From Candidatus Cloacimonadota bacterium (GTDB lineage Bacteria > Cloacimonadota > Cloacimonadia > Cloacimonadales > Cloacimonadaceae), in NCBI GenBank assembly GCA_012522935.1, contig JAAYJN010000040.1, positions 1 to 40,516 on the forward strand: a DNA stretch of 40,516 nucleotides, given 5' to 3'. The notes beneath the pieces were generated by a model that had not been told where the DNA came from, did not search any database, and saw only the letters and a list, made by a program, of their open reading frames with translations. The position numbers were made by a program, and so were the translations under genes. Positions 32,165-34,670 of this stretch are shown here, in pieces. Position 1 is the first letter of the stretch. Each line of letters starts with the position of its first letter.

Positions 32165-32713
32165 CTATACCTCGTATTGTTCCAGTACTTTTTCAAAATC
32201 CTCTCTTAATACCCCTACAATCACGATGTTTTTAAATTCACCATCCACAAAGGCACCCTTGCGCATCAGGCCTTCCACCTTATATCCACACTTTTCTGCC
32301 ATACGCAAAGAAGCTGTGTTTTCCTCAAAGACGCCTGCCCACACCCTTTCCAAACCTTTGTCATAAAACACGTGTTTAAGCATCAAAATGAGGGCATCAG
32401 TGGCATACCCCTTGCTCCAATGCTGTTTTTCCCCGATAAAGCAACCACTCACACCGTTTTTGTTGAGCAAATCAATACTATTGATAAAAACGCAGCCAAT
32501 CGCCTCACCAGTTTCTTTTAGGCAGGTGACGCAGCTTACACTGTTTCTATCAAATATCCGGTCTTCAAGCCACTTCTTTTCATTCAAAGTGGAGGTAAAA
32601 CGCCTGGTTCCGCTAAAAAATAGAGCAACCTCATCATCGTTTCTCCATTTATGAATGATTTCATAATCTTCAGGCTCCAACGCCCTTAAAAATACTCTGA
32701 ATTGCTTTTTCAT
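32165..32713 (-). CDS. GNAT-family N-acetyltransferase (RimJ-like)
   Basis: This 182-residue single-domain GNAT has FLRALEPEDYEIIHKWRND at its start and GCFIGEKQHWSKGYATDALILMLKHVFYDKGLERVWAGVFEENTASLRMAEKCGYKVEGLMRKGAFVDGEF covering the acetyl-CoA binding motif (Q/R-x2-G-x-G/A). Related GNATs next to sugar aminotransferases acetylate the new amino group on the nucleotide sugar. It overlaps the LegC-like aminotransferase by 4 nt, so it probably acts on that enzyme's product (inference). Confidence 0.82.
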   Translation of the reverse strand: MKKQFRVFLRALEPEDYEIIHKWRNDDEVALFFSGTRRFTSTLNEKKWLEDRIFDRNSVSCVTCLKETGEAIGCVFINSIDLLNKNGVSGCFIGEKQHWSKGYATDALILMLKHVFYDKGLERVWAGVFEENTASLRMAEKCGYKVEGLMRKGAFVDGEFKNIVIVGVLREDFEKVLEQYEV

Positions 32714-33990
32714 ACTAACCTCGCTGAACTTGGTATATTTACAAGCCTTGACGCAATCTCTTTTGACACAGTCAAATCTGCCGCCAGGGAACCCTTGAAC
32801 ATCTCCAGCTCGTTCATCAGGATCCAGGCGGGACGCGTCATCACTTTATTTTCGTTTGTTTCTTTTAGGAATGTCTCCTGCTGGATTTGGTCCTTGAGCA
32901 GGATTGCATTTAACCAATAATTAGATGTGCTGTGAGGGGGCTCCGGCTGGTATTGGATATCGGCAATATCGGCAAATAATTCCCGATAAAGCATAGCCGT
33001 CTCGCGTTTATTGGCAAGGATGGTCTCCAGCAGTTCCATCTGGGCACAGCCCAAAGCGGCATTCACGTTGGGCAGGCGGTAGTTATAGCCCACCATATCG
33101 TGTTCAAATTTCCAAGGATGCGGCTTTTTGGCGGTGGTGGTGATATGCTTTGCCAAGGGTCCCAAATGCTCGTCATCCGTCAACACCATTCCTCCGCCTC
33201 CGGTGGTGATGGTTTTATTGCCATTAAAGCTCAAGATCCCCAATTTGCCAAAGGTGCCCGTGTGCCGATCTTTATAATAGGAGCCCAGGGATTCGGCGGA
33301 ATCCTCCACTACGGGGATATGATAGCGGTTGCAGATATCCACGATTTTGTCTATACGGCAGGGATGGCCGAAGGTGTGCATGGGAACGCAAGCGGAGATT
33401 GGGCGGCGCAGCGTTTTGTGTATAGCAATAGTTGAAGATGGTCGAGGGCTGCGCCTTGTTGAGCGGACTTCGTCCTGTTGAGTGGGCTGCGCCCGGTTGA
33501 GTGGGCTGCGCCCAGTTGAGAAGGCAGCGTCTGGCTGAACGTGTTCGAGTTCAAAACTATCCAAACTGAGCACATCAACATTTTGGGTGAGCCAGCTTTC
33601 CAGGGCTTCTGGGGACATGCCCATGGTATCAGAATCCACATCCACAAAGACGGGCTTAGCACCGCAGTAGGAGATGGCATTGCAGGTGGCGATAAAGGTG
33701 AGGGGTTGGGTGATCACCAAATCCCCCGGCTGTACACCGGCAAGCAGCAGGGCAATATGCAAGGCAGCGGTACCATTCACCGTGGCGATGGCGTATTTGG
33801 CTCCCGTGTATTCCCGGATCATATCTTCAAAGCGATCTACGTATTTGCCCACAGAGGAAACGAAAGTGGTGTCTATGCAATCGGCAAGATACTTCTTTTC
33901 GTTGCCGGCAAAGTAGGGTTCGTGAAGGGGGATGAAGTCTTTATTGGGATAGAGGGAGCGGAGGAAGTCGATTATGTGTTTGTATTTCAC
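32710..33990 (-). CDS. DegT/DnrJ/EryC1 sugar aminotransferase (LegC-like) with in-frame repeat insertion
   Basis: This 426-residue PLP enzyme matches LegC-type aminotransferases: PLHEPYFAGNEKKYLADCIDTTFVSS, ATVNGTAALHIALLLAGVQPGD, CVPMHTFGHPCRIDKIVDI, IPVVEDSAESLGS and the PLP lysine in ILSFNGNKTITTGGGG. LegC enzymes transfer an amino group to C4 of a UDP-keto-deoxy sugar. Between FEL and AIHKTLRRPISACVPMH, where relatives have only a short loop, lies an extra stretch of about 40 residues rich in Ser, Arg, Pro, Thr and Gln. It is encoded by 19-bp hairpin repeats at 33441-33552. The frame is kept and the active-site residues are intact, so the enzyme may still work. The start is GTG with GGAG 7 nt upstream. 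Confidence 0.82.
   Translation of the reverse strand: MKYKHIIDFLRSLYPNKDFIPLHEPYFAGNEKKYLADCIDTTFVSSVGKYVDRFEDMIREYTGAKYAIATVNGTAALHIALLLAGVQPGDLVITQPLTFIATCNAISYCGAKPVFVDVDSDTMGMSPEALESWLTQNVDVLSLDSFELEHVQPDAAFSTGRSPLNRAQPTQQDEVRSTRRSPRPSSTIAIHKTLRRPISACVPMHTFGHPCRIDKIVDICNRYHIPVVEDSAESLGSYYKDRHTGTFGKLGILSFNGNKTITTGGGGMVLTDDEHLGPLAKHITTTAKKPHPWKFEHDMVGYNYRLPNVNAALGCAQMELLETILANKRETAMLYRELFADIADIQYQPEPPHSTSNYWLNAILLKDQIQQETFLKETNENKVMTRPAWILMNELEMFKGSLAADLTVSKEIASRLVNIPSSARLV
33441..33552 (+). repeat. Array A: 19-bp GTTGAG-hairpin repeats inside the aminotransferase gene
   Basis: Four clear 19-nt units start at 33458, 33477, 33496 and 33515, each GTTGAG followed by a short hairpin, for example GTTGAGTGGGCTGCGCCCG. 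Degenerate units flank them (GTCGAG at 33441, GCTGAA at 33534). Stems differ but remain complementary: GGAC/GTCC, GGGC/GCCC, and AGGC/GTCT with a wobble pair. The roughly 114-nt block is a multiple of three, so the host gene stays in frame. Confidence 0.85.
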
Positions 33991-34012: not shown

Positions 34013-34118
34013 GTTGAGCGCACTCGCAGGCTCGTGCTGTTGAGATGCACTGCGTGCAAGTTGAGTGGGCTACGCCCGGTTGAGATGCGCTTCGCGCAAG
34101 TTAAGAGGGCTGCGCCCT
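34013..34118 (+). repeat. Array B: GTTGAG-hairpin repeats downstream of the four-helix-bundle gene
   Basis: Units start at 34013, 34039, 34060, 34079 and 34100 (the last GTTAAG). They are 19-26 nt long, each a GTTGAG box followed by a hairpin: GCAC/GTGC, TGCAC/GTGCA, GGGC/GCCC, TGCGC/GCGCA and GGGC/GCCC, mostly with 3-nt loops. The array runs from the stop codon of the four-helix-bundle gene to within 12 nt of the ribosome-binding site of the aminotransferase, so these hairpins would sit in the shared mRNA. Confidence 0.85.
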
Positions 34119-34507
34119 TATTTACGAGTAGTCTTGTTTTGTTCATTTTGCAGGGCAGCTTTCCTTAGAGCATTAAGCCTATAAGCCACCTTGTCTATTT
34201 TATCTCTTATGGTTTTGTATTCGTTCTCGGTTAAATAGTTTATATCAATGCATAAGGTCATCTGGCAGAGTAGTTCCATCAAGCTGGCATAGGCTGTTTG
34301 ATAGAAATGGGCTTGATCCTTGCAGCTAACCCTGGAAGAACCTTCTGCTATATTTGAGCTTACAGAAACAGCAGATCTTTGAATTTGACTGATTAGTCCA
34401 TACCTCTCACTTTCAGGTATCTTTTTGGTCAGGAGATAAACATCTTTAACCAACTGGCGTGAATCATGCCAAACCTCAAGCTTCTCATATCCATACTGCC
34501 TTTTCAA
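34118..34507 (-). CDS. Four-helix-bundle protein (S23/23S rRNA intervening-sequence family)
   Basis: This 129-residue all-helical protein has the S23 family signature RQLVKDVYLLTKKIPESERYGLISQIQRSAVSVSSNIAEGSSR followed by FYQTAYASLMELLCQMTL. Relatives are encoded in 23S rRNA intervening sequences and as stand-alone genes; they form pentameric barrels and, as Avd, work with diversity-generating reverse transcriptases. No rRNA or reverse transcriptase is seen here. The TTG at 34507 is chosen (GGTGG 4 nt upstream, normal family length); an open frame extends to 34600 but runs through repeat array C and is unlikely to be translated. The gene is bracketed by GTTGAG-hairpin arrays. Confidence 0.8.
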   Translation of the reverse strand: MKRQYGYEKLEVWHDSRQLVKDVYLLTKKIPESERYGLISQIQRSAVSVSSNIAEGSSRVSCKDQAHFYQTAYASLMELLCQMTLCIDINYLTENEYKTIRDKIDKVAYRLNALRKAALQNEQNKTTRK

Positions 34508-34552
34508 TCTACCACCTATTAAATGTGACTCACTACCTGTGAAGAGCAACCC

Positions 34553-34670
34553 CTCAACTGGGCGAAGCCCTATCAACCGTGCAGCAAGCTTTGCTTGCAA
34601 ACACTCAACAGGCGCAACGCGCCGCTCAACTTGCGCCCACAGCGCATCTCAACTGATGCGCAGCATCAAT
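34553..34670 (-). repeat. Array C: GTTGAG-hairpin repeats upstream of the four-helix-bundle gene
   Basis: On the minus strand GTTGAG boxes (CTCAAC on the plus strand) lie at 34648-34653, 34625-34630, 34604-34609 and 34553-34558, with a GTTGAT variant at 34572-34577. Associated stems include GGCGC/GCGCC, GCAAGC/GCTTGC, GGGC/GCCC and, at the right end, GATGC/GCATC (34655-34667), which contains part of the stop codon of the upstream acyltransferase. Spacing (19-32 nt) is less regular than in array A. Confidence 0.8.

Follow-up and report, generated by a model that had tools for sequence, protein, structure and literature searches.

A block of the GTTGAG-linked hairpin repeats that this uncultured Cloacimonadota bacterium carries dispersed between its genes lies, in frame, within the coding sequence of a LegC-family aminotransferase. 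Very probably this genome-resident block was copied, with the array directly upstream as its most likely source, into a β-hairpin loop of the enzyme that is predicted to tolerate extra length, and has persisted there. The transfer would have run by recombination or template switching between repeat units. Persistence would be owed to a stop-free orientation, a total length that keeps the frame, an addition of ~30 residues that are predicted to be disordered, and the intactness of the conserved residues; the insert itself is probably close to neutral for the enzyme. The window, the whole 40,516-nt stretch analyzed here, is contig C166 of the host genome (G000; 2.13 Mb in 170 contigs), and the gene and its array are laid out as follows.

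32710..33990, minus strand: LegC-family (TIGR04181) sugar-nucleotide aminotransferase, 426 aa, from the open ORF and profile matches.
33445..33540, minus strand: in-gene array of five 13-nt stem-loops separated by GTTGAG linkers (read as CTCAAC in the coding direction), from the sequence, TRF, linkers and stems.
33445-33457, 33464-33476, 33483-33495, 33502-33514 and 33521-33533, minus strand: the five in-gene stem-loops, from stem pairing.

By profile score and conserved residues, the product of 32710-33990 is a LegC-family aminotransferase. It scores 528.9 bits against TIGR04181 in the profile search (cut-off 420), and the invariant family columns are intact despite the insert (D230, the PLP lysine K259, N303 and R305), in agreement with the initial annotation, which had described the PLP motifs as preserved. 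The profile matches split into two stretches around the insert, which occupies the loop before CVPMHTFGHP, and relatives of known structure in the PDB include PglE and GDP-perosamine synthase. In the AlphaFold model (mean pLDDT 90.1), the only stretch with pLDDT below 50 comprises residues 156-182, between strands 138-142 and 187-191, with all invariant residues outside it. Low confidence between two strands suggests that the insert is a disordered excursion from a β-hairpin, and the loop in which the initial annotation had placed it is predicted to be flexible.

The in-gene array, which encodes residues 151-182, has four intact GTTGAG linkers (at 33458, 33477, 33496 and 33515) and a decayed one, GCTGAAC, after the fifth stem-loop. 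TRF reports a period of 19, 3.9 copies and a score of 101 over 33446-33520, and the stems vary yet stay paired (GGAC/GTCC and GGGC/GCCC). That a repeat array lies in frame in a LegC-like aminotransferase had been proposed initially, and TRF, the linkers, the open 426-aa frame and the TIGR04181 match bear this out. The extent needs revision, because the array had been taken as about 114 nt of six 19-bp units and is actually five hairpins with four intact linkers over ~96 nt. The protein is indeed lengthened in a loop, but by more than the ~38 residues first estimated: the segment between the same motifs has 88 residues here versus 44 in ordinary homologs, an excess of 44 residues (132 nt) that, set against an array of ~96 nt, must also hold ~12 non-array residues. 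Five hairpins within a 44-residue excess also mean that the phase is made up by non-repeat codons. The insert is open, as had been stated, but its length is a multiple of three only when taken in full, and the proposed rule that units are tolerated only in multiples of three does not hold for the insertion itself. Nor was a step of three units seen between species; the one change seen is a unit swap at constant number, and threes would be needed only for later gain or loss. What the initial annotation overlooked, besides the different repeats that other genomes carry in the same loop, is a constraint of orientation. Read from the sequence, the CTCAAC strand of the 19-nt unit has zero stops in all three frames, whereas the GTTGAG strand meets a TGA within every three units; the in-gene array has the stop-free orientation, with CTCAAC on the coding strand.

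The repeats of the gene belong to a family resident in the genome, and they share it with the nearby arrays, as had been supposed. The pattern GTTGAG-N10-17-GTTGAG has 48 matches in G000 versus 0 for a backwards control, which rules out chance occurrence of the array, and similar arrays stand at ~20 other places. Our census of G000 consisted of this pattern search and the reading of 30 of the 48 matches with their surroundings. None of the other 30 matches read in context is inside a recognizable gene (their locations are short incidental frames or the edges of ORFs without Pfam matches), and the aminotransferase is the only recognizable interrupted gene found among the matches read. A match in L007, inside an unrelated 454-aa ORF, was dismissed as chance. 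The 38 distinct units read in G000 form a mean of 4.2 pairs versus 3.0 in shuffles; 14 of them have a GNA triloop where 1.8 are expected, an over-representation that may point to selection on single-stranded shape. Many seemingly unpaired units do pair once neighboring G.A mismatches are allowed, and many, with a sequence like GAGC-GAA-GCGA (L002-L010, L140-L182), pair only when tandem G.A mismatches are counted. G000 also carries a second dispersed repeat, of CACGAAT type (40 versus 0 in the control; e.g., C73:6273-6423), which is absent from its LegC gene. The presumptive source of the in-gene block lies just ahead of the gene.

34013..34117, plus strand: array B, immediately ahead of the aminotransferase start, containing the GGGC-stem unit type shared with the gene, from the sequence, TRF and stems.

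In the places listed for G000 and its sister species, the GGGC and GGAC stem types with a GTTGAG linker occur otherwise only in arrays adjoining the gene, and local spread, as first suggested, is therefore likely.

The sister species (G004, JAAYQD010000230.1, same genus) has a LegC protein 88% identical to that of G000, and the same insert is present in its independently built assembly, so that an assembly artifact can be rejected. Over the 93-nt array the two species differ at 8 positions, of which five lie in the first unit and the other three at the right-hand edge. Through the five first-unit changes, CTCAACTGGGCGCAGCCCA becomes CTCAACAGGACGAAGTCCG, which is identical to the third unit; all five are silent in the frame of the unit, and the stem stays paired. 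The residues just outside the in-gene array are more diverged between the two species. Array B differs between them in the number and order of its units while the in-gene array is constant in length, and together with the in-gene swap this suggests an exchange of repeat units inside the locus that leaves the length of the in-gene array unchanged. The G004 genome holds 60 GTTGAG linker pairs.

Most homologs fetched, from Campylobacterota, Pseudomonadota and many Bacteroidota, have a short loop, and the alignment confirms that they lack the stretch; these residues were found in no unrelated genome, only in the sister species of the same genus. Away from the N-terminus, insertions of at least 4 residues occur at this loop in 25 aligned rows. 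A second such site, close to residue 300 of L051, is used in a few Bacteroidota and in G050, and two Campylobacterota rows have an insertion near residue 20. The inserts in the loop differ among genomes, and several match the dispersed repeats of their own host. The G014 insert consists of two 9-mer runs inverted relative to each other, and the 9-mer repeat stands directly upstream of the gene as well; its 11-mers have 437 matches per 100 kb versus ~4 for shuffles, with 139 pairs. In Anaerophaga thermohalophila (L061, G098) the insert is a 6-mer whose pattern, GGYTRAGGYTRAGG, has 555 sites versus 2 for the control; the 6-mer occurs at two places in LegC, and no other gene was hit in the stretches that were read. 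The second, short 6-mer run of Anaerophaga lies in another loop, near residue 320 (L061; G098 C34:13544-13561). The insert of G037 is of CACGAAT type, and a nearly identical copy stands immediately upstream of the gene; CACGAAT pairs number 12 in G037 and 44 in G029, versus 0 in the control. These repeats are common in G000 and G003 as well, although LegC lacks them there, and so they are not specific to genomes that bear them in the loop. Counts of the insert repeat exceed the control in G100 (26 versus 2) and G102 (37 versus 10) and are weak in G099 (11 versus 5). The G008 insert gave no clear match in the sampled G008 genome, and in the multi-genome count the 7-mer of G103 (L070) matched mostly at the gene itself and its surroundings.

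A tree of LegC homologs from which the loop columns were omitted places all ten Cloacimonadota in a single group (support 96), each with an extension of at least 7 residues; six Bacteroidota rows have an extension of at least 6 residues, and five changes of state are required for the extension. Because the ten Cloacimonadota are grouped and all extended, their loop may have been lengthened once, long ago, and its content later exchanged or supplemented, without repeated independent gains; to account for the different repeat families, sequence must nevertheless have been acquired several times. With several relatives in two phyla carrying other genome-specific repeats at the same spot, the loop looks, from these comparisons, like a place in which spreading repeat DNA settles time and again. 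A bolder reading, which we rate slightly less likely than not, makes this loop and the second one a hot spot shared across phyla: it would repeatedly take up whichever intergenic repeat family is spreading in its host, fed by arrays directly upstream, and so keep a running record of repeat invasions, with the neighboring IVP gene perhaps taking part.

If the insert were instead an old, fast-evolving low-complexity loop that grew in place by replication slippage, its likeness to the intergenic repeats would be incidental. Extended loops in all Cloacimonadota homologs of the tree, and inserts that in some cases resemble simple tandem peptides, agree with such growth. We nevertheless think it improbable, given that inserts match the host's own dispersed repeat class at high excess in G000 and G004, in G014 and in Anaerophaga, and that simple slippage does not yield hairpin units with conserved linkers. 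Slightly less probable still is that selection maintains the array as an RNA or DNA structure by which gene expression is controlled from within the coding sequence. The G000 units do pair more than shuffles, and the G014 and L082 inserts fold strongly as RNA (z of -6.55 and -5.65), but the insert of the window reaches only -1.63 as RNA and -1.34 as DNA, and those of L094, L070 and L049 are practically unstructured, so that structure is not a common property of the loop.

Two explanations remain. The tagged hairpins are like REPs in layout, and G000 has one Y1_Tnp gene, which would fit REP elements moved into the gene by a RAYT-type Y1 transposase. This route is not supported by G004, which is repeat-rich and has the same in-gene array but, in a genome 89% complete, no Y1_Tnp match; G028 likewise has 81 linker pairs, by pattern count alone, and no Y1_Tnp match. 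Moreover, the tag is neither GTAG nor CGTC, and no array was among the matches listed on the transposase contig of G000 (C77). We thus regard this route as very unlikely. The other explanation concerns the gene beyond array B.

34118..34600, minus strand: 23S_rRNA_IVP/TIGR02436 gene for a four-helix bundle, lying between arrays B and C and with an uncertain start codon, from PF05635 (119.5 bits) and TIGR02436 (107.9 bits).
34553..34660, minus strand: array C, in opposite orientation, upstream of the small four-helix gene, from the sequence, linkers and stems.

The IVP-family gene sits here among protein-coding genes, not in a 23S rRNA intervening sequence. It adjoins LegC in G000, G004, G014, G029, G006, G050 and L094 and lies between oppositely oriented arrays both in the window and in G014, as might be expected if this IVP/Avd-like gene and its flanking arrays formed a unit, mobile or loop-diversifying, by which LegC is supplied with repeats. 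Against this, no IVP gene lies within 3 kb of LegC in the long-loop L045, L047, L061 and L082, whereas L066 and L114, whose LegC genes have short loops without an insert, do have one nearby, and relatedness confounds the count. We give such a unit hardly any credence, less than any of the other alternatives, and favor copying from a neighboring array. In G014 the tail of the IVP gene is encoded by the 9-mer array, just ahead of the LegC start (C1 ~767716-768030; L188:12698-13120).

Palindromic repeats inside genes are already known from Rickettsia and from REPs, and the present case is of that kind. In the account given in PMC10969869, citing Ogata 2000 and 2002, Rickettsia palindromic elements are genome-resident palindromes of ~150 bp that lie in frame in many unrelated protein genes of one genus, where the protein fold is thought to be compatible with them. 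The LegC-array class likewise occurs both in frame inside a protein gene and between genes, but the in-gene insert consists of arrayed 19-bp hairpin units, was found in a single gene, and has counterparts from other repeat families in the same loop of other genomes. REPs, palindromes tagged with GTAG or CGTC, are short, mostly intergenic and sometimes grouped hairpins, some of which lie inside ORFs, where dimers or groups add 20-30 residues and clusters 43-82 (PMC3733652); recB of two Xanthomonas species has different REPs at about the same site (PMC3733652). The LegC-array units are also short, tagged and mostly intergenic hairpins. They differ in that the tag, GTTGAG in the arrays read, stands between all units, head-to-tail, that the sister species has no Y1 transposase match, and that, unlike the recB case, the sharing of the LegC loop extends over two phyla and involves three or more repeat families. 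The short tandemly repeated repetitive (STRR) sequences of cyanobacteria are genome-specific intergenic arrays of short units, and the 9-mer of G014 and the 6-mer of Anaerophaga resemble them in this respect, whereas the repeat of the window is a hairpin unit with a linker; we know of no STRR residing in frame in one enzyme loop. Searches of the literature on Cloacimonadota repeats and on LegC repeat insertions returned nothing relevant, and we found no description of one loop holding different repeat families across two phyla, which is apparently new. Intragenic repeats are usually studied genus by genus, and the LegC loop can be compared across genomes with unrelated repeat families. It thereby provides a naturally occurring experiment on the movement of small bacterial repeats, on the sites where they are tolerated, and on whether they stay neutral or become a source of new protein sequence.

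Repeats touch a few other genes of the relatives. One array in G100 is in a gene, at its very 3′ end. Two further G014 ORFs with an array-like stretch have no Pfam match and look spurious; besides LegC, 1.2 Mb of that genome contains a similar stretch only in the inter-domain linker of a kinase-FGE protein (L299:10132-12048), a VEKIEKVEKVEE linker encoded by DNA like the 9-mer repeat of the genome.
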